A stretch of DNA of 64,000 nt from Pleurotus djamor. Lineage: Eukaryota > Basidiomycota > Agaricomycetes > Agaricales > Pleurotaceae. Location of the stretch: NCBI GenBank assembly GCA_029747585.1, contig JAPEVF010000133.1, positions 1 to 64,000 of the forward strand. The letters are read 5' to 3'. The notes beneath the pieces were generated by a model that was given only the letters and a program-made list of their open reading frames with translations, had not been told where the DNA came from and made no database searches. This document shows, piece after piece, positions 10,433 to 27,389 of this stretch; position 1 is the first letter of the stretch, and the number at the start of each line of letters is the position of its first letter. Position numbers and translations under genes: made by a program.

Positions 10433-13400
10433 ATGTATCCTGTAGCAGTCGCTTGTCTCCTTTCCGCACTAGGGTTCATCAAGGCTGGATCAGCCCAAGG
10501 TTAGTTTGAATAGAACGCTATATCGAAATGGGGCTGCCAGATTTCTCACAAGTGACTTCTTTTTTCGTACAGTCCTCATATCAGATCCAAACGAATTCGT
10601 CAAGGACACCTATGACTTTATCATAATAGGTATGGACCAGCCCATTTGGCAGGAATAAGTCAACTCACCATATTCACAGGCGGTGGAACCGCTGGTTTGA
10701 CACTTGCGACAAGGTCGAGCCCGATTTTAGCATTTAACTTTGAAGGGTGCTGATGCGTCGTTGACATGCTAGACTTGCTGAATCGCATGACGTTGGGGTG
10801 ATTGAAGCGGGTACCTTCCATCCAGATGAACCATTGATTGACGTTCCGCGTAAGGTTTCATCCCTTTAAGTGACACATCCACACACCTAACATCCAAGAG
10901 TAGTATTCGTCGGAGGGACATTGGGAAACACGACCTTTGATTGGGGATTCCTTACGACGCCGCAGCCTAAGCTTAACAACCGACCGATCCCAGCAAACAG
11001 GTAAGACTTGCTTTCGTTGTATTCCGAATGGTGATCCTGATGTGTTCGATCGTAGGGGAAAAGTCCTCGGAGGCTCGAGCGCGCTGAACTTCTTGATATA
11101 CGGCCGTGGCTCGAAACCCGAGTACGATACATGGGAGGAACTGGGGAACACGGGCTGGAACTGGGACAATTTCTTGCCATACTTCAAGAAATCGGCGACG
11201 CAAAGGGACGGCGACTCTGGCATATTCCCTGGGACATCAGAAGCACCTGGGACCTTCACGAAATTCCAAGGCAAAGCTGGGCCTCTGCAAATCAGTTACA
11301 ACACCGAGAATGATTTCCTTAGCGGTCTCTTCGCTCCATTTGCGCAGGCAATGCAGAACCTTGGTTCGAAGGCGAACGCCAATCCCGTACGTGGACTTGC
11401 TCTATCAATTTTGGGAGCTGAAATTGACGTTATTGAACTTGAAAGGATTCTGGTAACGCCACAGGGGTGTTTCAAACGTCCCGTTCCGTTGACACAGCCA
11501 CGGGGAAGCGCGCCTACGCGGTTTCTTACATCAACGCCACCACTCACAGCGGCACCCTGAAGATCTTGACCGGTGCTGAAGTAAGTTTCGAACTTTAGTT
11601 TTTTACGATGCACAGTGGCATAAGATTTATGCTCCCTCCAGGTTTCTCGGATCAACTTTGCCAAGTCAGGAAAGGTTCAACAAGCTTTAGGCTGCACCTT
11701 CCAAGCCAATGGCGCGTCGTTCACCGTAAAACCAACCCGAGAACTCATCCTATCCGCTGGTGAGTCAGCTTATGATACCATGTAACCATAGAGCATCCCT
11801 TCTGAGCGTTTCTTCTTCTTAGGTGCTTTCAAAACACCTCAACTATTGGAACTTTCGGGGATAGGCAATTCGGCGCTCTTGAAATCGCTCAAGATCCCCG
11901 TCCTCGTGGATCTCCCTTCGGTGGGCGAGAATCTCCAGGTTCGTAGACTCGGACTGTCCCAGCGCGGCTCTGCTGATTCGGACCGACGCCTAGGATCACT
12001 TGCTCGTCAACTCGGATTTCCTCCTCAAGCAGCAGTCGGATCACGTTGCAACCTATGGTCTGTTCTTTTCTTGGATATATCGTGTCCGCCGCCCTCTGAA
12101 TTACGACGTGTCCAGATCAATTCCGCAATGACCCATCGAAAATGCAAGAGGCCCAACAACAATAGTAAGCACACGCCCCTCTCCTCATGATCGTGTCCTC
12201 TGTGTTGACTTAGTCGATTGATTTAGCGCACAAACGCATGACGGATACTTTTCGGCGTCCAATGCCATCGTCTCCTTCGAACCCCTCCAAACTCTCTTGG
12301 ACAAGAAAACCGCTTCTTCCATCGTCAAAGCCCTGGACAAAGAAATCGCGGCGAAGTCAAAGTCCCTGACATATTTCCAGAAGGTTCAATATGGGATCCA
12401 GAGACGGTTGATCGATGAGGGCCAGGTCGGACAGATGGAAATAGTTCTTTTCCCTGGTATGTTTGCCTTTTCATCCTATCGGGCGAGCGTTGATTAAAAT
12501 CTTTATACTTGTGTTTACAGGTAACGGTGTGACTATTCCACCACTCGCTAACCGAAGTTACATGTCGGTATCTTCCTTCCACTCCGTAAGCAAGATTCTT
12601 GTCTCCTTTGGTGGCCTGATCCGACTGAAACCTTGGTTCGCAGCGCCCCTTGAGCCGTGGTTCGTCGGTAAGAAATAGAACGATGCTGATGATGGAGGCC
12701 TCTTTGCTGATAACACGTTTAGCATATCAACACGACCAATTTCAAAGACGCACCCATCATCAACCCGAATTACTTCGACTTCGACTTTGGTAAGTAACCT
12801 TCGTGACGAACTCGAGATGTATATAACTGAATTACCGTACCTGCCCGTTATAGATTCCAGAGTTCTAGAAGAAGCGACGAAGGCAGCACGGCGGCTCGCT
12901 CAAACATCACCGCTTGCCGAGTTGATTGAAGGTCCATCAACACCCTCAAGTAAAGTTCAGTCCGCAGCCGATTTCAAAACGTGGGTGTACCCCTCCGTCA
13001 TTGTGATCAGTGATGCTGACTTACGTTCTCTCCATAGGTTTGTAAGCCAAACTGCGACGGTGAGTTTGCCCACTTGTTATATGATAATGCAGGCATTTAC
13101 AGTTGACTAGACATCTTTCCACGGAATTGGTACTGCGGCGATGGCTCCCCTTGAGTGTGGAGGCGTTGTTGATGCAAACTTGCGTGTATATGGAACCTCT
13201 AATCTGAGAATCGTTGATGCCAGGTGGGAACCGATTGTGCTCGCCGTGTGGTTTGTGATGACTAACCCCTTGGGTTACAGTGTTTTCCCGATGCTGTTCG
13301 CGGCGCATACCCAATCTACGGTGTACGCTCTAGCTGAACGGGTGAGTAATATCTGGCCTTGCTCACATCAACTGTAACTCATTTGTTGTTTCAAGGCGGC

Positions 13401-14037: not shown

Positions 14038-16550
14038 ATGGCTTCACAGACTTTTGACTATGTGGTATGTACCTGAACCGTCTCGCAAATCGTTCTCCGA
14101 GTCTGACACCATGATCTCCATCCGACTAGATTGTTGGTGGAGGCCTCTGCGGTTTAGTTGTTGCTACCAGGCTGTCTGAGGACCCAAATGTCTCTGTTTG
14201 CGTCATCGAAGCGGGGGGTGATTACTCGGGCGACGAGGACACGACAGTCCCAGGTGAGGATCTGTATGTCTGAGTTCACCCACCATGAGCGCTGACAGCA
14301 AGTTCATAGGATTGCTCGTTAACAACCTCTTTAAGCCGGAAAAGGACTGGATGTTCATGACTGTCCCACAAGAACACTGTGGAGGTCGACCGATTTACTC
14401 AGCTCGGTATGTTGCGACTGTGCGCGAGTAGCGATAGGCCTACTCATTTCCTCCAGCGGAAAAGGTCTTGGAGGCTCTTCGGCCGTAAGCATTTTTAGAA
14501 TTTTGTACCATAATTCCTTACGACGCTAACTCAACTGCCCTCAGATCAATTTCATGCAATTGGGTAGATCAACAAGCAAGGAATATGATGGTGCGTATGG
14601 ATTTCTCTTCGTTCCGAACATCCAGCTTATGTTGGGGCGAATTCGTAATAGACTTCGAGAAGCTAGGCTGCAAGGGATGGAATTGGGACTCTTTCCTCCA
14701 TTATCTACGCAAGGTGTGAATCCAATCGCGTCTTTCTCGGGGTTGTGTCCTCATTAACTTCATTATAGTCCGAAACTTTTACATACACCCCCGAAGAAGC
14801 CAAGGCACTTCGAATGACGATCGATCCCTCTGTCCATGGGACTTCGGGTCCGCTTCAGAAGACCTTGCCTACTCAAGTCAACCCCGCAAACCACCCATGG
14901 ATGGACGCTGCCATCGCTAATGGCGTCCCTCTCAACCCGGATAGCGTACGTAGCCCATGGCATACCCCCTTCGTAGCAGCCGCTAATTTATCCTCCAGAG
15001 CTCCGGTGACAACGTTGGCGTGTGGACCAACACATTTGCGATAGATCCTCAAGTCACTCGCAGCAGCTCTGTCTCGGTGAGGACACCCAACTTCTCGCAC
15101 GACAGACATCGCTCATTCCCGGAAACCACTCCGTCAGTGCTATTACAATCCGGTCAAGGCTGAACGCAAGAACTTGACGGTGGTCTTGAACGCTTTGGCA
15201 ACTCGTGTCCTTTTTGCAAACGGGACCACCTCTGTCAAAGCGACCGGTGTAGAAATTCTTCGTGGTGACCAAACCCAAGTGATCAATGCGGCGAAAGAAG
15301 TCATCCTGGCTGCTGGGACATACCAGACTCCCCAACTTCTCGAACTCTCTGGTAAGTGGCCGCTTTCAAGCGTACCAATGGGATCATCCTTGAACTTGAG
15401 TAGGCGTCGGAGATCCGGATTTCTTGAAAGCACACGATATCCCCGTTGTCGTCAAGTCAGTCGGTGTTGGGCGGAACTTGCAAGATCATTATAATTGCTC
15501 CTACGTGACCGAGCTAGTTCCTGGTGTCCCGTCCTTTGAGATCCTGTCCAACCCACCCCGTCTAGCCGCCGAATTGGAACTCTAGTAAGTGATGTTGCTT
15601 ATCCCCCACATTGGCGTAATCTTAACTTCTTTCCAGTAAGGAGGCCAAGAAAGGGATGTTGTCCACTGTAACGACGTCTTTTGCTTTCCTACCTGGACAT
15701 TTATTGAGCGACAAGCACACCGAGCTCAAAGCCCGCATCAACAATCTCAACATCGATCATCTACCTGAAACCACACCCGGTATGCGCAAGACGTTCGAAC
15801 TCCAAAAGGACTGGGCTGTGAACAATGATAAGGTTTCATGGATCGAGTAAGTATCTTCCCCTTGATATCCGAAACATACTCACGTCTTACATGGCGGCGT
15901 AGGATGGCCCAAGTTGACCGATTCTTCCCGACGACCGTACCTACACCTGAACCAGGCAAAACCTATTGCTCAATGTCCATCATCCTCCTACACCCCCTCA
16001 CTCGGGGTACGGTCCACATTGCCTCCAAAGATCCTAAGCAAGCGCCTGTCATCGACCCGCGTTGGCTGGAGAATGATGTCGACGTGGATATCATCGTGGA
16101 AGCGCTTCTATTTGCTCGGAAGCTCATCAAGACGGAACCGCTGAAAGGGTTCATTGCTAAGGAAATTGCTCCGGGAGAGCAAGTTAGTGACAGGGATGGA
16201 TTGAGGGCATTTGTGAGGGCCACCGTCGGGAGCACGTTCCACCCACTTGGTACGGCTGCTATGCTCCCGAAGGAAGACGGCGGTGTCGTCGGTCCTGACT
16301 TGATCGTCTATGGGACGGAGAACCTCCGCATCGTACGTATGGTTGGTGTATTTCTTGCGAGTTTTTGGCTAATCTTTTTGCTTATAGGTCGATGCGTCCG
16401 TGCTTCCTATCCAGATGTCTTCCCACATACAGGCCACGGTCTATGCTCTCGCTGAGAAGGTAAAGTCGACCCGCTGAGTCTCGTTTGCCGGGACACCGCT
16501 CATTCGCCACTATACTACAGGCTGCAGACATCATCAAAGGAAGCATTTAA
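14038..16550 (+). CDS. GMC oxidoreductase without signal peptide
   Basis: Second FAD-dependent GMC family enzyme. The start MASQTFDYV runs straight into the dinucleotide-binding motif IVGGGLCGLVVATRLS, so there is no signal peptide and it is probably cytosolic, unlike its upstream neighbour. Signature 1 is GKGLGGSSAINFMQLGRS (near 14458-14570). Signature 2 is [19 protein letters not shown] (split by an intron near 15352-15402). The catalytic His pair lies in TFHPLGTAAM (near 16235) and SSHIQATVYALAEKAADI (near 16420-16525). Stop TAA at 16548-16550. It is a diverged paralog of the tandem neighbour rather than a recent copy. It may oxidise an alcohol made by the cluster inside the cell (inference). 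Confidence 0.9.
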
Positions 16551-16977
16551 ATTATGCATGAACAAATCTGGGTTGTATTTTTCCGAAAGCACCTTGAATT
16601 TGTACTTAATAGAACTGTACCGCTCCAGTATATGACGACCCAACATCGGTTATGCTTGATGTTCAAACAATGGCCCGAACACCCTTTGTAGCTCGAGTGC
16701 GCAAGTCCATGCATAGAACCAAGGCGCGGTTTCATCGAATCCAAGACTTGAGCTTTCTGACAGTGGACACACGCGTGCCTTGTTAACTTGGTCCTCATGC
16801 AGTCTCATGGTCCACGGCGGAGGCATATAGCTTCAAGTACTGTCGAGCGCGACGGCCTATGAATTGTATTTCAATGCTGTTTGGTTTCGCATGACGCAGA
16901 ATTGACGGGGACATGATTTACACAAAGCATCATTCGATTTGAGGACAGAGTTCATAGTAGGATTGGAGTACGGGTGT
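16551..16977. other. Intergenic, nothing recognised
   Basis: AT-richer DNA after the second GMC gene. I see no credible coding frame, repeat or RNA gene. Confidence 0.4.
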
Positions 16978-18130
16978 CTCGACGAACGAGAAGGGGACGG
17001 NAAAAAATTAGGTCACAACGTGGTTTGTGAAAGGGTTACACCAGCGCGAAAATCATCAAACTCCATCAATCCCTGTCAAGTCCCTCCACCATGAAAGGAG
17101 TTCTACACGTCTGCGACAACGGGTTATCCTGGAACGGAGGAGCGCTACGTCGATGCGAGGAGGCGTGAGGCAAACGAAGGGCACGTAGCCCGAGGTGAGG
17201 AGATACAATCAAAAGCAATCGACCAACAGGTCGATCACCTCTGATCTACCTCCACCACCACGAAGCCAGTCCTACCAAGCTCGCTACCCTATCGCCGTGG
17301 AGTGCTTCTGCGAGGTCCCCATTCGTCGGCGTTAATCATTAAAGGTATTTATCTCGGGCGATGTTTGTCGTCGTGGATAGCGGTACGCGTATACGTCGAG
17401 CGCATGTGGCGTCCAAGTATGTAAGTATGACCCCCCCGATGACGTTGCTTCGTCATATATAGCGGCATGCTTTGGCCTGGCGGTGTTCAGGCGCCACTGA
17501 CCGTCCTCGCAAGCCACATGCATCATGGGTCGTGCGTGGTACCGATGCGTGCAAGCATCGTTGGCCAGTGATAGGGGGGGCGTGCTCGACGACGATGTGT
17601 CAGTATGCACCGGGATGGCTTATCCCGCATACGGCTGGTGGGCGGTGTTTCCAGCCATAAAGACCATGACAGGCCTTGGCCGCGATTATCGTGCGTCGGC
17701 CGGTAAGTAGTTTGAGTCCATCCTTTGGAATTGGCTGTGGTTCAGTAAAACTTTCATCAGCAGTACCTGAGGATAGAGCGCAGGGTGACACAAAGGAAAC
17801 CCTCCCGTTGAGCGTATTCTGTTTGGATGCTTTGGTCGCCAGCAGGCTGTGGATTGGAACGTGAAGAATCCCAGCGCATCAAGCAAGCTCACGAAGAGCC
17901 TGCCCGGACACCAAAGAGAAGGTGTCACGCCATGGTGAACAAAGACGAGATGAAAGGGAAAGAGAAGGAATCCATGCAAAGACGCACCAATGAAACCCTT
18001 CCGCCACGATGTAAAAGCCACTAGACGGTGACGACAATGCCCTCGACGGCAGCCAGGGAGCCGCCGTGTCTTTGGGTTGAGTATTGAAGTCGAGTGGCAA
18101 TCATGATGATCTGGAGGAAAGAGTTGAGGT
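16978..18130. repeat. Direct repeat copy A (about 1.2 kb)
   Basis: Collinear, diverged match to 21975-23120 in the same orientation. Paired landmarks include GACGAACGAGAAGGGGACGG (16981) against GGCGAACGAGAGGGGATGG (21980), TATCCCGCATACGGCT (17621 and 22596), and a late block at 17760-18130 against 22735-23120. On the minus strand both copies read FPFHLVFVHHG, FVSLLDA and ALSSGTAD, so they may descend from a coding element, but no intact gene remains. An N sits at 17001 beside an A run. The element family was not recognised. Confidence 0.75.
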
Positions 18131-18521
18131 GGCGTAAATCTAGACTTTATATGGAAACTACCGAGCATGTGATCCCCCTTTTTCGAACGCAGACTCATGT
18201 TCAACTCATGTTTCAATGTATAGGGAAGTTTATCCTTTGATGCAGAGTTGAGGAACGCATCCTCGGTTGATCGAGAAAGGTGGATATCGTAGTTGATGAC
18301 GGCTTCCCAGCGCGAACTTCGGAGAGGGAACCGACCGGAATGTTCTTTCTACATTGGAAACAGCGACGGTAATCAACATGGTAAAGGTCGTGAGCTACCA
18401 AGGGATCGGGTACGTTACTGGTTAATCCCATGTTGAAGAAAAAGGAGATGACTTTGAATAAACGCGCGGCAGCACCGTTAGAGAAGACGGAGATACATAC
18501 CACTGAGTTCCCATTGTCACC
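18131..18521. other. Spacer between repeat A and avidin gene 1
   Basis: The 3' flank of the first avidin gene. A 96-codon minus-strand open frame (18213-18503) has no motif support. Nothing else was recognised. Confidence 0.35.
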
Positions 18522-19001
18522 TTAGAGTTTCATCGCACGACTCATAAGGTGGGCTCGTTCAATCATTTGCTGGGTTGGTGGGGCCTTGGTAAACTCGTCA
18601 TGACCCAGATTGGTCGACTGCCACAAATCCTTGGGCTGAGTGCTGCTCGACAACAACCACTGTGTGAGAATGACAGGCTCAGGCGAAGCAAAGAACTGCC
18701 CACTCCATGTAGCAACGGAGTGGATGCCTTTCTCTTCAACCTCGTAGGACACTGCCCATCCAATGGCGACGCCTTGTCCAGAGGGGGCCTTGAGATTGTA
18801 GCGTCCAGAAAGTGGATATGCTTTAGGAACACCACCAACAGCTGAGAAGTAGCTCCCGGTCAGTGATCCATCGGCGTTCGCGGTAAGATCCATGCGAGAA
18901 CCGAGTTCGTTGTACCAGGTGCCGGAGATAAGAGCTATCATCAAGCGTGTTAGTTGAGCCATCAAGCAGGACGATGATCTGTTTGACCAACCGCTCGACA
19001 T
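18522..19001 (-). CDS. Avidin-family biotin-binding protein 1
   Basis: Small beta-barrel avidin, expected to bind biotin very tightly as a tetramer (family knowledge). Splicing a 10-nt first exon (18992-19001) to 18934 removes a 57-nt intron and gives MSSALISGTWYNELGS, 140 residues in all, close to the length of the mushroom avidins called tamavidins. Typical positions are kept: GTWYNELGS, a Tyr in TGSYFS, PLSGRYNL, GWAVSYE, ATWSGQFF, LTQWLL and the terminal WQSTNLGHDEF with its Asp. No signal peptide after splicing, so cytosolic. A TATA-like TTATAAG lies about 45 bp upstream (19043-19049). Stop TAA at 18522-18524. A second avidin gene lies 1.3 kb upstream on the same strand. Confidence 0.93.
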   Translation of the reverse strand: MSSGWSNRSSSCLMAQLTRLMIALISGTWYNELGSRMDLTANADGSLTGSYFSAVGGVPKAYPLSGRYNLKAPSGQGVAIGWAVSYEVEEKGIHSVATWSGQFFASPEPVILTQWLLSSSTQPKDLWQSTNLGHDEFTKAPPTQQMIERAHLMSRAMKL

Positions 19002-20326
19002 AGTGGGGGATTTTTCTGTACTTCAAGTCCGCAGAACGGGAGCTTATAACCAAACAGTTGAGTCGCCGTGACCTGTTGAAATCTTCCCCGAATGTACATT
19101 ATTGTCCAATGCATGTCGGACAGGAATGCCTACCGATATAACTTCCATTCCCTGATCTCCAAGGACGCCCGTAAACCACCAATCCTGGTGAGGACGTAAG
19201 ATGGCCGGTATGCCGAGTAGTCGTATTCATTGACGATGTCGACATGGAGCGTTTGTGATAAGAGACTGGTATTCAATGAATCGCAAGGTCCCATTGACAA
19301 GTCAGGTGGCCCAATGAATACTGCTAACCGGTTCCCGATCAATGGCTACTTTCGGCATGTGTTCATTTGTTGAACCCGGCGAAGTGTTGTTCCGAATACT
19401 AATGACTTTGCAGAGAGCTCTGCCGTCAGCCATCCTTCTCGACTCTTGGTTTGTTGAAGAGGCCATGGGTAGAGTTAAGACCGTTCATACGCCGCCAATA
19501 CTCGGGTCGGAGACGACCAACGAACGGGATGATGGAACCTTGGGCCATGCTTTGAACAAAGGCAAGATTTCAATTGAATGGGAAATGTATTGGAGATGCT
19601 TCGACCAATTCCCGCCAGGTCCTGAAGAGAGAATCAGAAGACGAGTACCCGAGTAGTAATGAAGGCCTTCTCACCGAAGAGTCTGGAATTTTCAGTCAAG
19701 TGTCCCAAAAGTGTCCAACTATTAGTTTGCACCGAAGGACTACTCAAAGAAATGGGGTGATGATGAGTCCACGTTCGTCGGCATATCATGAGCATTGAGG
19801 AGATGTGGCCTACGGAAGCACATCTGACCAACATCTGACTTCCTGTCCTATCGATTCCTTGAACTTCAGCCTGATTATCTGATTCGGGGTGACTCTTGCA
19901 TTGTATCCCTGTCTAGTTGGAGCGACACAGATGTGCTTATCGGGAATTGTGTTTGGCGAGGAAATGTTCCACGACGTAAACCACACACCGCGCGGCGGTT
20001 GCAAAAGAAGTAAAAATAGAGCTCCGCTCCCATGTCACGGTGGTGGATTTCCTCCCGATTTAGGGGCGCGAACAGGGACCGCCCTCCATCATCCAGGGTG
20101 CTCCAGTCGTGTTACCGGGGGTAAAACTTGAAGGTAGGTATATCTCACGCAAAATGAGGTTTATTTCAGAGGATACACAATACTACAGACAGACAAGCCG
20201 GGATAATTGTGTAAGATACAAATCTTGGGATTGAGCGACCGAACGACCGAACCTGACAGCAGCGTGAAGCAAGATTTAGCTGATATCATAGATGATCAAA
20301 GACTACGACGAACTCAAGAGGAGCCC
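19002..20326. other. Intergenic between avidin genes
   Basis: This 1.3-kb interval contains the promoter of avidin 1 (TATA-like sequence at 19043-19049) and the 3' flank of avidin 2. Open frames of up to 104 codons occur, but none shows a known motif or sensible splicing. Nothing else was recognised. Confidence 0.4.
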
Positions 20327-20859
20327 TTAGGCGCGGGACTTGGCCAAATCAAGTCCACAATCCAAGCCACGACGTAGAAGTTTGGCTCGGGCAATCTGCT
20401 CTGGACTAGGCTTCGTCCTCCCAAACTCATCATGCCCTACAATGGAGGATTCCCATAGATCTTCACGTTCGGTGCTTCGCGAAAGGATCCACTGGGTGAG
20501 AATTGCTTCCGAGGATGCGACCGATCCAGAGGCAGGAAAGTACTGTCCGCTCCATGCCGTAGCAGAATGAACGTTTGAGCCGGGGTTCTCCCAGGACACC
20601 ACCCATCCGAGGGCAATACCTTGTCCTGAAGGGGGCGAGAGGTTGTAGCGCCCAGAGAGGGGGAAAGTGGGAGGAACCTCGCCGACGTTGGAATGGTAAG
20701 TCCCAGTTAGGGATCCATCGTCGTGGACCTCCAACACCATCGTCGAGCCGAGCTCGTTGTACCAGGTCCCGGCGAGGGGAGATTTCACTGTGTGCATGGA
20801 TGTGAGTAGATGTCAATGGCTTTGTCGTGGGTAGAAATTGACCAACCTTGGGTACTCAT
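20327..20859 (-). CDS. Avidin-family biotin-binding protein 2
   Basis: Second avidin. Exon 1 is 13 nt (20847-20859); a 59-nt intron with donor GTTGGT joins it to 20787, giving MSTQVKSPLAGTWYNELGS and a 157-residue protein. The biotin-pocket framework is present: GTWYNELGS, Tyr in TGTYHS, PLSGRYNL, GWVVSWE, TAWSGQYF, LTQWIL and LWESSIVGHDEF. Compared with avidin 1 it has a short insertion before ILTQW (GSVASSE) and a longer C-terminus ending in LDLAKSRA. The first intron has the same position, phase and donor as in avidin 1, so the two are tandem paralogs. No signal peptide. TATA-like TTATATTC about 55 bp upstream (20911-20920). Such proteins can starve feeders of biotin (family knowledge). 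Confidence 0.93.
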
Positions 20860-21974
20860 TGCTGTAGGAAACTATTGAGGAGAACTTGGGGGAGAGAAGC
20901 CTGGATGTGGATGAATATAAGTAAGTACCTTAATGAGCAGAAGCGCCGTATTAGGTGCTTCCATTCGAGACGGAACCTTCTGCCTCAGCTGACCGGGCAG
21001 TGTGACTGTTGCGGAAGGGGTAGACGGAGATTCACGAAGTCAATAGAAACAGAAAGAAAGCTGTGAGGCACCGAAATATTGATCGGCTGTGGCATCAGAT
21101 GTTCACGTTATGGTTCTGTGGATTCAGTAGAACTTCTAAGATTGATTGGCCGTCTAGTGTGTCCTCGCAATGTAATTGAAAACAAACTGGTCCTCATCGA
21201 AGGTAGAGATTCGGGGGAATATGGGAGAACCGAGAGTCCAGAACTTTTAGAACATATTGGATTATCAACAAGCCAAAGGGCGGTAGCGAGAATGTCAGCG
21301 AACTGTGGCAATCACCGCATAGGAAGTAGTCGTAATTGCGTCTACCCATCGGTCAAGGTAATTGAAAAAGAATCTATGCCTTACGATAAGGAGTGCCTGA
21401 GTGCCTCCTTTTGAAGCGATATTAGACAAAAAAAACTCGAGGACGCTTTGAGGACTCGTGTAGCGTGGATGGAAATGTGCCAAATCAGCCCCAACATGAG
21501 GCAAAACACAAGGTAGATAGTTGGACCTTGTTAAGCCCGAAGGTCTGAGACTGAGCTATGCCAAAGGAATGCTTGGTGGAGTAGTGTAAGAGCGCAAATA
21601 GTGCTAGCGTTTGGCGCACCTGCGTAGCAGTAGCCCAAGATAGAGACAGACCCTCGATGTGTATTATAGAGGACGGAATTCATTGATGGTCCAGTAGAAC
21701 GGTGGCACTCTGGTACTGAGAGACGAAGCAGGCCGGGCTACCCGCTATGACCCCGAAGACATGAAGTTGGATAGAAGGGCATGCTGCCGGTCTCTCCGCC
21801 AATGAAAAGGGGAAGGGCGCTACGGACCTATCAGAAACCTTCGAATCTTGTATCGACAAAAACACAGCACAACTCACGCACCAACAATTCAAGAAGTAAA
21901 TCCATGGGAAACAACCCCTTACGAGTTTCATTGTGGTACAGAAGATACATCATTCGCAAGGATAATAAGTGAGG
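20860..21974. other. Intergenic upstream of avidin 2
   Basis: About 1.1 kb with the promoter of avidin 2 at its left end. The remaining open frames are short and unsupported. No repeat or RNA gene was recognised. Confidence 0.35.
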
Positions 21975-23120
21975 TAGATCTCGGCGAACGAGAGGGGATG
22001 GAAAAAATTATACCACATCGTGGGTCGTGAAAGGGTAACATCGACACGAAAATCAACAACTCGAGTCTCCTCCACCATGTTGAACGCTTCTCCCAGCGGG
22101 TTGTCCAGAAACGGAGGAGCACTTCTTCGAGTCAAGGAGGAGTGAGGTGAAGGGCGGAGTACATGCAGAGATGGGCGGGGCATGCAGACCATGATGGAGG
22201 GGTACGAACATCATTGATGACCAACCGGAGAGTCGGCCATCTCTGAGCTACCTCTCCATCGTCACCCAAAACCAGTCCATCCAAGCTCGTTATCCTATTG
22301 TTGTGAGTGTTTCGCATATTTGGCGTTGATCGTAGAGGACTGTCATCCTCGATGGCGGCTGCGTCGTGCGTCATGTGTGGTGGTGGTTATGTGCGTATAC
22401 GCTGATCGCGTGTGAGCATCCTAAGTATGAANCCCCCCCAAGGTGTTCTTTCGTCACCAAAGCTGCGTGCTTTCTTTCGCCCAACCGTGACCATGGGTCA
22501 TCGAAGGATTTCTCGTAAGTTTGAGCAGTATCCTCAGTCAGTGATGATGGGAGGCGTGCTAATTCGACGGCGCGTCGCTAGTCACCAGGATCGTATCCCG
22601 CATACGGCTCGTGTTTGTACGCTAACATCGTTGCCATCCACAAAGAAAAAGACCGTTCGTAGGGTCTCGCCGCGATCGTCATGTTTTGGCCATTAAAGTA
22701 GGATCCAGTGTCCAGATACCGGTACTCGAGTTTCAACAAACTGGCATCATCAGCAGTACCGGAGGATAGAGCGCCGGGTTCCGTGAAGGTAACCCTCCCG
22801 TCAAGCAGCATGCGATGCGCGTTGCTTTGGTCGCCTTCTTGGGCTGTTATATGGAGCGAATGAAGCCCTACCGCATCAAGCAAGCTCACAAAGAGCTTGC
22901 TCTGACACCACCGAAGTAAAGTGCCGCGCCATGGTGAACAAAGACGAGATGAAAAGGAAAACAAGAAACCCAATGAAAAATGCACCCAATGAAACCCTTA
23001 TACCACGATGTGAGAACCGCTAGAGACTGAAGACAGTTCCCTCGACAGAGGCCAAGCAGCCACCGCGTCTTAGGGTAGGACGTCGAAGTCGAGTGGCGAT
23101 CGTGATGGTGTGGAGGAAAG
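21975..23120. repeat. Direct repeat copy B (about 1.2 kb)
   Basis: Partner of the repeat at 16978-18130, same orientation and order, with many substitutions and small indels. A minus-strand frame running from about 23100 to 22680 (FPFHLVFVHHG, SLLDAVG, GRVTFTEPGALSSGTADD) is better preserved here than in copy A, where it is frameshifted. It could be an exon of a decayed element protein. An N at 22432 touches a run of eight C. Together the two copies bracket the avidin pair. Confidence 0.75.
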
Positions 23121-23978
23121 AGATGAGGCCATGAGGCCTGAGGTGGCGCCGATTGAAATTTATGCAGAAAATACTGTGCACGTGGCACAATCAGGGGTGC
23201 AGGAGAAGCTCAGGAGGTCTGATTGTCGAATGGTTCAAATAACGAAGGAGGGGCCCTATGAATACGGCAGTACCTGATACTGTGAATCCGCGATAATAGA
23301 CAATTAACCATTGGTGACGGTCAATACAAGAGATGTGCAGCTACTTGACGTACATTTGGGTGCGATGAGAAGGGAGTTGACCAAGTGATATTGCTCTACT
23401 AGTTACGATGGACGCCATCCACATATAAAGTCCTTCCAGGCTTGCAATTCCCGTGGAGAGAGACTATTGAATAGTCTCTCTCTTTCTTGTCTCGTCCAAT
23501 GATCATGAATCCATTGGTGATCAGTGTCGAGTCTTGTGATGGATCCCTCTCAAATTTCCCCGAGTTGCTGCACTCTGAAACTTGTATTCTGTGATTTCTT
23601 CCATTCCAAGGTCCGTTTCTCAAGGTACGCACAGCAGAACCCAAGCAACAACATCTGCGTCAAGAATTCAGATGGCCATTGCCGAAGTGAGGGGCTAGGA
23701 GAAGATAGGAGAAAACCTTATTTTCTTGGGTTCGACAAAACCTTATGGGTAGTTTTATAAACAAAACCACACAGTATCAGGAATAGGAGATACTTACCGT
23801 CTCTCAGACCACTACCACCGCCATTATCGTTGATCAAACACTCTCTGCAAGATATCTCTAGTTAAAGGCCTCATTAGCTTTGCGAAGTTGAACATAGATA
23901 CGCTGCACGCAAAGGTCAAATATGACTGGTTATGTTGCTCCCTCAGCCTGGCCGTGGAGCGTTGAGCACTCATACAGT
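23121..23978. other. Intergenic, nothing recognised
   Basis: Spacer before the Mug135-like gene. A 5' exon of that gene may lie at its right end, near 23900-23966, but I could not settle it. Other open frames lack support. Confidence 0.3.
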
Positions 23979-24578
23979 GTATTCCATCAGACGTAGATCA
24001 TTCCGCTATTGGCGAAGCCCTCGGTGATCCACAATCACCCTTGAGCAGAGCCATCGATTCGATGCAAGCAATGATTGAGGAAAAAATGCGCGAGCTGGAA
24101 AAGGAGTCAAGAAGACATTCGCGGCTGACGGCTATTGTAAGTCCTTCTTTGACCAGAATTTCTTTCGTTTATTACTTATATACTCGTCCTAATTCTCATC
24201 TGTCCCGTCACTTACGCCGCGAATTCGGCAACACGAACTGTAGTTATGGAACAAGAATGCCCTTATGACGGATTCCGCCTCATTTGAAGTAGTCCCATTT
24301 CCAAACGAGACGTTTGATGATCCCACTAGGCTACCTGTAAGTCAATAGCGGATTCAGTTGAGTGTTCAAATGCCCCAAAACTCCATGTATAGCACGATCT
24401 ACCGGCCTTAAACTCGCGACTGGCCGTCAAAGCGTTGACCCAGGCTCAACTGGCGGCGTACATCCGTGGATACATGAATGACCAGCATTATATCATCCCC
24501 GAAGACGTTAATAAAGGTCGGCAACTGGTTTTCAAGGCGATTGGGGCTCGACGTGGTTTTGATGAGGATGTCGAATGA
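23979..24578 (+). CDS. Mug135-like C-terminal domain protein (5' end unresolved)
   Basis: Three exons can be joined. The first (23979-24136) encodes DVDHSAIGEALG and a coiled, charged stretch MQAMIEEKMRELEKESRR. The second (from about 24241 to 24335) encodes LWNKNALMTDSASFEVVPFP, and the last (from about 24392) encodes HDLPALNSRLAVKALTQAQL and ends GFDEDVE at TGA 24576-24578. The order 'kNA...F.VVPFPnGt...P...LP.L.s..a.kaLt.aQL.aY..gY' is what I know as the Mug135-like C-terminal domain, frequent in basidiomycetes and without a known function. An in-frame stop at 23964 means a further 5' exon holds the start. Probably a small cytosolic or nuclear protein. Confidence 0.6.
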
Positions 24579-25547: not shown

Positions 25548-27220
25548 ATGGAGCACCCATCCGCCGCTTTTGCTAAACTCCAATTAAGCACGGTGCGCGT
25601 ATGCCATCTCTGTGTCTCCATGCAAATTTCCTGATTCCCCGTTTGATTCGCTCCAGTATTTTCATGGTGCGCTAGTCTACTTTATCCTCCTGACGCCGAT
25701 GAAACTTACTCTCCCATTGCTCTCAGTCTCTGCAATCGCCCTTTTTGTGAGCAATCCTGTTCTCCTTAGCTCGAACCCGAGGTCTTAACAGGGATTACGC
25801 GAAAAGGTTTACGACTACTTCCTCACCCTTGACGACGAATTCACCTATGTGTGGCGTCGGCCCATCCGCGTAGGGCGTGTATTATATATCCTCAATCGGT
25901 ATCCCACATTCGTTGGATTGCTTTTCAGTCTTCGGAGTATGTCTCTTTGTTTGGAAAGTGAATTCCTTCCCGTTTACTCACGTATATCTGGCCTCTAGTT
26001 CGGATGTTGATAGGTCCTGCCAAGCGTCAGTGTGAACTTTTTGTCAACGGCACCACGGGTACGCTTCTTGGCCTTGAGCGTTCTTTTCTGTTCCCTGTAG
26101 CCGGCAACTCAATACGTACATGTGTTCAATCCAACAGGATTGTTTTTCTTTGGATATATTGTCGCAGAGCGTAGGTCCCCCTCTTCAGTGCAGTAGCCAT
26201 GGACATCCTCACCTCTTATTGACGCAGTTCTTATGCTGCTTCGCGTCTGGGCGCTTTGGGGACGCATGCAGCTTATGACAACTCTGCTCGCTGTTCTCTC
26301 AGTAGTACGGCTCATTATTTCAGCCGTGATCTACGTTGAGGTCGGTGACCCACTCAGTCAAGGTTAGTCTGTCCCAGGTCTGATGGGAGTAATCGCGTGC
26401 TAATGAACACAATGTGGCTTGCAAACCTAGCCGGAGCATCAAAAAACCCTCTTGTCCCAGGGTGTCCGCTCACCTCCGAACCAAAAATGGAGTTGATCCA
26501 GTATGCGATGGTCTGCGCGTATGAAACATGCAACAACGCAAAAAACTCACTCGTTCAGCTGACGGTGATGTCTTACTGTTGTTTCTCTTATGTTCTTAGT
26601 GATCTTATTTTTGATTTTGGCAAGATGCATTGGTCATACACAGCGAAGCCGCTCAGCTCTGTTTACGTCGTTTCTGCAAAATGGTACGGTGGTACTCGAA
26701 CTTTATGTGTCACAATCCAGAGTGCTAAAATCTCCGGCGGTGCATTTTAGGTGTATTCTACTTCCTGGCCGTCCTCGGTCAGTCGCGAGACTTCGCTTAT
26801 TATGGAAGTACTCTGCTGAAGTTGTGTTCATGCGACAGTTGTTTCAACCACGAATGTGGTCATGATATTGACCAAATTCGTTCGTGCCCATCTTCTAGAT
26901 TTCTTTCTATCGAGGTTTGTACTTACGGAGCCTTATCATCACAGGATGATGGCTTGGATATGATCACGTCGTAGGTCTTCGTCCTTTCCTTCAAACAGAT
27001 GAGTTCTGACATCACATATCTTAGACTACAGAGAGCATTGCAAGCGATCATCGTCGGGCGGATATTCCTCCAGCTTCGTAAAAGAAACAACGCCTCTGGG
27101 AGACCTTCATCTTGCGCACAACCGCAACACATGTCTCCCACAGCTGTAACAACCATTCGCTTTAGGCATTCTTCACACACGCCTGAGTACGTAGGCACTG
27201 TCGCTACTACTCTGTCCTGA
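25548..27220 (+). CDS. DUF6533 multi-pass membrane protein
   Basis: Membrane protein of the DUF6533 family, expanded in Agaricomycetes and of unknown function. The start MEHPSAAFAKLQLS is at 25548. The diagnostic N-terminal block is VYDYFLTLDDEFTYVWRRP followed by LYILNRYPTFVGLLFSL (near 25805-25935). The next exons add QYVHVFNPTGLFFFGYIVAE and MLLRVWALWGRMQLMTTLLA, a helix normal for this family, and RLIISAVIYVEV. Later hydrophobic exons include FLVILFLILARCIGHTQ and MILTKFVRAHLLDFFLSR. The last exon reads LQRALQAIIVGRIFLQLRKR, resembling the usual cytosolic tail, and stops at TGA 27218-27220. Around ten exons. Exon joins in the middle (26360-26760) are unsure. Confidence 0.75.
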
Positions 27221-27389
27221 CTCTTAGAGTCAATAATCAATGACCCCAAGAGCCATTAGCCAAAACCGCGTGTCCATTTTCAGGCAAAACCAGCGGCGGT
27301 TCTACCAAGGACCGGAGAGAAAGTCATGCATCTAACTACACTGCCTACGGGGCATCGATACGTCTAGAATGGGAGAACTTAGGAACACA

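Follow-up and report, generated by a model that had tools for sequence, protein, structure and literature searches.

Two avidin genes lie in tandem on the minus strand of the window, the whole 64,000-nucleotide stretch of Pleurotus djamor DNA that was analysed. Both are intact and intron-bearing: gene A at 18522-19001 and gene B at 20327-20859. The Pfam profile PF01382 matched A with 83.8 bits (E = 1.6e-23, positions 2-116 of 116) and B with 88.7 bits (E = 4.4e-25, positions 2-115 of 116), both far above its curated cut-off of 24. A runs from 19001 to 18522, the last base of its stop codon, and B from 20859, the first base of its ATG, to 20327; after splicing the proteins are 140 and 157 amino acids long. 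The sequence-only reading had proposed such a tandem of fungal avidin genes reading cleanly after splicing, and both points hold at these coordinates. It had also seen a loop insertion and a longer tail in the second gene, which the alignment bears out: B carries five additional residues between strands 6 and 7, and its tail extends nine residues past the end of A.

Searched in all six frames with PF01382, the whole assembly returned five places, namely A, B, two on contig C1273 and one on contig C510. The two C1273 genes follow one another in the order of A and B, with almost identical spacing, and both are intact. When 18 kb of C1273 were compared with the window, four pieces matching at 87-91% covered most of 12.5-23.2 kb, and the interval separating A from B was 92% identical (1175/1274 aligned bases), so that C1273 is probably the other haplotype rather than a duplicate. 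Between A and its C1273 copy there are 8 synonymous changes and 3 non-synonymous ones, and for B 17 and 2, which by simple counting, and with counts this small, gives per-site ratios of 0.11 and 0.04. Two of these genes have deposited proteins from P. djamor, ONZ45_g4689 (P0001) for A's other copy on C1273 and ONZ45_g7600 (P0002) for the C510 paralogue, both labelled hypothetical protein with no function given.

A and B have one short intron each, just past the start codon and with similar donor sites. In A, exon 1 (18992-19001) encodes MSS plus one base, the intron (18935-18991; 57 nt, phase 1) has a CTAAC branch-like site and a TAG end, and exon 2 (18522-18934) runs through the stop codon and holds the PF01382 match. 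This splicing is supported by ONZ45_g4689, which skips the intron and has the same start, MSSALISGTW, although that protein may itself be a computer prediction. In the gene model of B, exon 1 (20847-20859) encodes MSTQ plus one base, followed by a predicted intron at 20788-20846 (59 nt, phase 1, A-like donor) and by exon 2 (20327-20787), which includes the stop codon and the profile match. The intron site is also present in the C1273 copy of B, and the C510 gene has a 53-nt intron at the position matching the introns of A and B. In the database, B is entered as P0005 (156 aa), which starts within the predicted intron; the start of B is less certain than that of A, and if this entry is right, only the first few residues of B would change. 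The A intron is a multiple of three and free of stop codons, both in the window and in the C1273 copy, so its retention would yield an in-frame, longer N-terminus, while retention of the 59-nt B intron would break the spliced frame.

A direct repeat, roughly 1.2 kb in length, brackets the pair; its units at 16958-18197 and 21926-23205 are 71-77% alike in their alignable parts and have no Pfam match, and the first unit is apparently non-coding and has no known link to avidin function. Its 376-base core occurs at only four places in the assembly, two in the window and two on C1273, and no frame of this core is open in all four sequences. The repeat is thus neither dispersed nor evidently coding, and we discarded a transposon as its explanation. 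Just downstream of A, at about 18195 of the window, C1273 has about 4 kb of extra DNA (96289-100264) with a DUF6533 match, part of which is 69% similar to window positions 25548-27292, also DUF6533-bearing. On the plus strand, near the avidin pair, there are probably two GMC oxidoreductase genes (PF00732, PF05199; about 10670-11380 and 14130-16340), whose matches are scattered over several frames in a way that suggests interrupting introns. A Mug135_C domain match lies on the plus strand at about 24390-24548.

Structure prediction and a phylogeny with bacterial and fungal avidins had been suggested as checks. The AF2 models, monomers and ligand-free, predict that both A (pLDDT 89.8) and B (pLDDT 89.3) fold as eight-stranded avidin barrels; the top PDB match of each is tamavidin 2 of Pleurotus cornucopiae (2zsc; rmsd 0.9 and 1.3, respectively), with streptavidins also among the best structural matches of both models. 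The main tree had 133 rows and was built with columns 79 and 90 excluded (the program warned that 140 columns are few for this number of rows). It started from a pool of 165, made up of proteins of 121-219 aa and 23 of the 39 loci of a locus scan. Thinning at 80% identity, with six Streptomyces rows kept regardless, reduced this pool to 119, to which 14 rows from fungi were added; the tree excludes P0001, P0005, P0079 and P0080 as well as the first domain of both P0081 and P0082. Tamavidin 2 is represented in the trees by an engineered variant (P0004).

Five Pleurotus rows, including A, B and tamavidins 1 and 2, form a clade with support of 100/98 in the 133-row tree and 99/98 in a 40-row tree. 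Within it, B and tamavidin 1 are sisters (100/93 and 99/89), tamavidin 2 stands next to them (98/82 and 96/82), and A pairs with the C510 copy (99/79 and 96/80). The two trees agree except that the pair of Pterulicium avidins, at 98/82 in the larger one, is weak in the smaller (80/34). Grouping A with tamavidin 2 was not rejected (p-AU 0.17), and grouping the C510 copy with tamavidin 1 was nearly so (p-AU 0.056). If the tree is right, the placement of A with C510 and of B with tamavidin 1 means that the A/B pair predates the divergence of P. djamor and P. cornucopiae, and it speaks against a single recent tandem duplication giving A and B. A single origin of the fungal rows is absent from the tree, yet it was not rejected when tested (p-AU 0.17 with all 14 rows and 0.22 without Cylindrobasidium). 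Since many rows are unnamed metagenomic sequences, we make no claim of gene transfer; our search of the open-access literature found no publication on a P. djamor avidin or on horizontal transfer of fungal avidins, and the accessible part of PMC8033661 places tamavidins with streptavidins.

A and B are therefore proteins of a known kind, the tamavidin type, from the genus of the best-known fungal avidins. Other fungal avidins were found in Pterulicium, Gymnopilus and Cylindrobasidium and, among the best 120 of 475 matches, in Hypholoma, two species of Mycena and Favolaschia. Avidins had been called sporadic in fungi; given the host's genus and these other fungi, the occurrence of A and B is less surprising than that description implied. 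For comparison, 10 of the 392 searched genomes of the genus of Streptomyces virginiae have an avidin. Tamavidin 1 of P. cornucopiae, which like A and B has no leader peptide, is 70% identical to B over 92% of B, but B differs from it in the five-residue loop, in the longer tail and at pocket positions 79 and 90. Tamavidin 2, 63% identical to A as judged from the engineered variant, agrees with B at these two positions; its pocket is unlike that of A.

Pocket residues are given in streptavidin numbering, mapped onto our alignment. Asn23, Ser27, Tyr43, Ser45, Val47, Gly48, Trp75, Ser88, Trp92, Trp108, Leu110, Trp120 and Asp128 are kept in both proteins, and with them all of the biotin hydrogen-bond residues (Asn23, Ser27, Tyr43, Ser45 and Asp128). 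The aromatic box Trp79/Trp92/Trp108/Trp120 is complete in B; A has three of the four. The pocket framework that the sequence-only reading had seen in both genes is accordingly whole in B, whereas in A Trp79 is replaced by Tyr and Thr90 by Ala, as also in its C1273 copy; that reading had singled out the second gene as the deviating one, but the altered pocket belongs to the first. At positions 79 and 90, B has Trp/Thr, as in tamavidin 2, A has Tyr/Ala, and the C510 paralogue has Phe/Ser, as in tamavidin 1. Position 49 is Glu in B and Gly in A.

The Tyr79/Ala90 pair is shared by A, and not by B, with streptavidin C1 of Streptomyces cinnamonensis (PDB 7cpz, 7cq0; Ala90 read from the alignment), a bacterial protein with 49-52% identity to A. 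In PMC7924230, one and the same assay gives Kd values of about 3 pM for streptavidin C1 and about 6 pM for streptavidin, and the Tyr of streptavidin C1 is already remarked as unusual, with Phe in tamavidin. By analogy with this picomolar binder, which has the same pair, A should bind biotin; the two replacements could lower affinity in the background of A even though streptavidin C1 tolerates them. The activity of tamavidin 1 with Phe/Ser shows that members of the tamavidin clade can function with a pocket that is not Trp/Thr. Streptavidin C1 differs in having its own C-terminal self-binding peptide (PMC7924230, in part); A ends directly after its C-terminal helix, and such a peptide is absent from its alignment and AF2 model.

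Our main reading builds on what the analysis showed: both genes are intact and present in two copies that differ by few amino acids, and their family, pocket residues, predicted fold and place in the tamavidin clade are as described above. From this we infer, with good confidence, that A and B are functional, leaderless, cytosolic avidins of the tamavidin type that would trap biotin as an anti-feeding defence. By inspection, the GTWYN of the first barrel strand starts at residue 8 of A and 11 of B, too close to the N-terminus to accommodate a leader, so both proteins would lack a signal peptide and stay in the cytosol. There the barrels would presumably assemble as tetramers and bind biotin near-irreversibly, and a nematode, insect or amoeba feeding on the tissue would be starved of biotin by the avidin set free. 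A and B would represent two versions of one pocket element: in B, the indole NH of Trp79 could hold the Thr90 hydroxyl that would face the sulphur of biotin, and the Tyr79-Ala90 of A would be the replacement known from streptavidin C1. The available passages of PMC6238071 call tamavidin 1 cytoplasmic and report that it strongly reduced two fungus-feeding nematodes, with recovery below 4% of control when it was expressed in another fungus; biotin sequestration is the cause in the authors' view, and in a table there, one row for tamavidin 1 reads non-toxic under one of its two assay columns. The parts of PMC8033661 consulted describe known eukaryotic avidins as secreted, at odds with a cytosolic site.

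Avidin-type biotin binding is nearly irreversible, and on general grounds it is ill-suited to storing or buffering the fungus's own biotin. Cytosolic avidins would nevertheless encounter the cell's own biotin, but with tamavidin 1 toxic to nematodes (PMC6238071, in part) we regard a storage role in place of defence as unlikely. It is similarly improbable that A, as a copy under drift, has given up tight biotin binding and leaves the work to B. A, unlike B, has lost Trp79 and Thr90, yet its differences from the C1273 copy are mostly synonymous, its Tyr/Ala pair recurs in streptavidin C1 and altogether in 19 of the 160 avidins aligned (a count that covers A and its copy), and tamavidin 1 is active with both positions altered; we likewise do not favour A as a pseudogene. 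Bacterial contamination of the assembly could be suspected from the nearest named bacterial relatives, the streptavidins, at about 50% identity. The avidin genes have introns, however, a second copy exists with conserved surroundings, and the same contig holds the apparently intron-split GMC oxidoreductase matches; on the introns and the second copy we rejected contamination, which has next to no chance of being the source. The two genes enlarge a small fungal set and would offer two natural variants for biotin technology.

The sole unexpected part of our findings is the coupling of positions 79 and 90. We counted the pairs in an alignment of 160 proteins, namely the A and B models and 158 fetched sequences, among which P0001 and P0005 are near-copies of A and B: Trp/Thr occurred 120 times, Tyr/Ala 19, Phe/Ser 7, Phe/Thr 5 and Phe/Ala 5, and the rare pairs were Trp/Ala (2), Arg/Thr (1) and Trp/Ser (1). 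Every Tyr79 row (19 of 19) thus has Ala90. The 133 tree rows gave 101 Trp/Thr, 13 Tyr/Ala, 7 Phe/Ser, 5 Phe/Thr and 3 Phe/Ala, with 2 Trp/Ala, 1 Arg/Thr and 1 Trp/Ser. By background-corrected mutual information, the pair 79/90 ranks 9th of 9453. On the tree, nine independent row pairs differ at position 79 (Trp or not); on average, position 90 (Thr or not) differs the same way in 6.5 of them, the opposite way in 0 and not at all in 2.5. The sign test gave a median p of 0.016 (range 0.016-0.063), and position 90 came first among 123 columns in co-change with 79 (runner-up 3.0), these tests being post hoc because the pair had been spotted before testing.

A hydrogen bond would explain this co-change: in the accessible passages of PMC5398887, Trp70 of chicken avidin is hydrogen-bonded to Thr77, the bond is absent in bradavidin, which has Phe there, and the equivalent Thr touches the sulphur of biotin. 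Partial views of two further papers give exceptions, as bradavidin has Phe yet retains Thr (PMC3344845) and Ser replaces Thr77 in zebavidin (PMC3811995). We found no statement of a 79/90 coupling, or of avidin covariation, in the portions of the open-access avidin literature that were searched. The Tyr79-Ala90 pair might instead reflect mere shared ancestry, inherited once by the lineage of A and the other Tyr/Ala avidins. A clade of A and the Tyr/Ala Pterulicium avidin was indeed not rejected (p-AU 0.14, or 0.13 with the C510 copy added), and the Streptomyces cases form one clade. A single clade of the four named fungal Tyr/Ala rows was, however, rejected (p-AU 1e-49), as was one of B, tamavidins 1 and 2 and the Trp/Thr copy of Pterulicium (p = 0.0004), both tests being weaker for groups named after the tree was seen. 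Together with the co-change on independent branches, this leaves common descent a poor candidate for the whole pattern. For protein engineers, the coupling suggests a rule whereby changing Trp79 or Thr90 alone may cost more than changing both; for annotators, Tyr or Phe at 79 is by itself no sign of a dead avidin.

Tentatively, and with considerable doubt about the reading as a whole, positions 79 and 90 may form one evolutionary switch with the settings Trp-Thr, Phe-Ser and Tyr-Ala, driven by the Trp-Thr hydrogen bond beside the sulphur of biotin, and genomes with two avidins may tend to hold different settings. Its first half, the switch itself, is well supported, with Phe as the loosest partner. 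The second is suggestive only, with few independent cases (Pleurotus, Pterulicium and one Streptomyces clade). P. djamor has Tyr/Ala, Trp/Thr and Phe/Ser, P. cornucopiae has Phe/Ser and Trp/Thr, and Pterulicium gracile has Tyr/Ala and Trp/Thr; six Streptomyces of the locus scan have one Tyr/Ala and one Trp/Thr avidin each, as does Streptomyces sp. NPDC007172. Both copies of Streptomyces humicola (L041, L044), in contrast, are Trp/Thr, and the two-domain metagenomic protein P0079 has Tyr/Ala in both halves, which weakens paired pocket types as a general rule. The mixed Streptomyces being one clade, there are about three independent mixed cases against one uniform. The four loci of Streptomyces SID8352, all Trp/Thr, were excluded from this count because they are located at contig ends, and as separate genes they would count against the tendency. 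If the tendency is real, the two settings perhaps serve different biotin forms, off-rates or mixed tetramers. Two-domain avidins were seen in Favolaschia (P0081 and P0082, with a diverged first domain) and among metagenomic proteins (P0079 and P0080, 337-339 aa).
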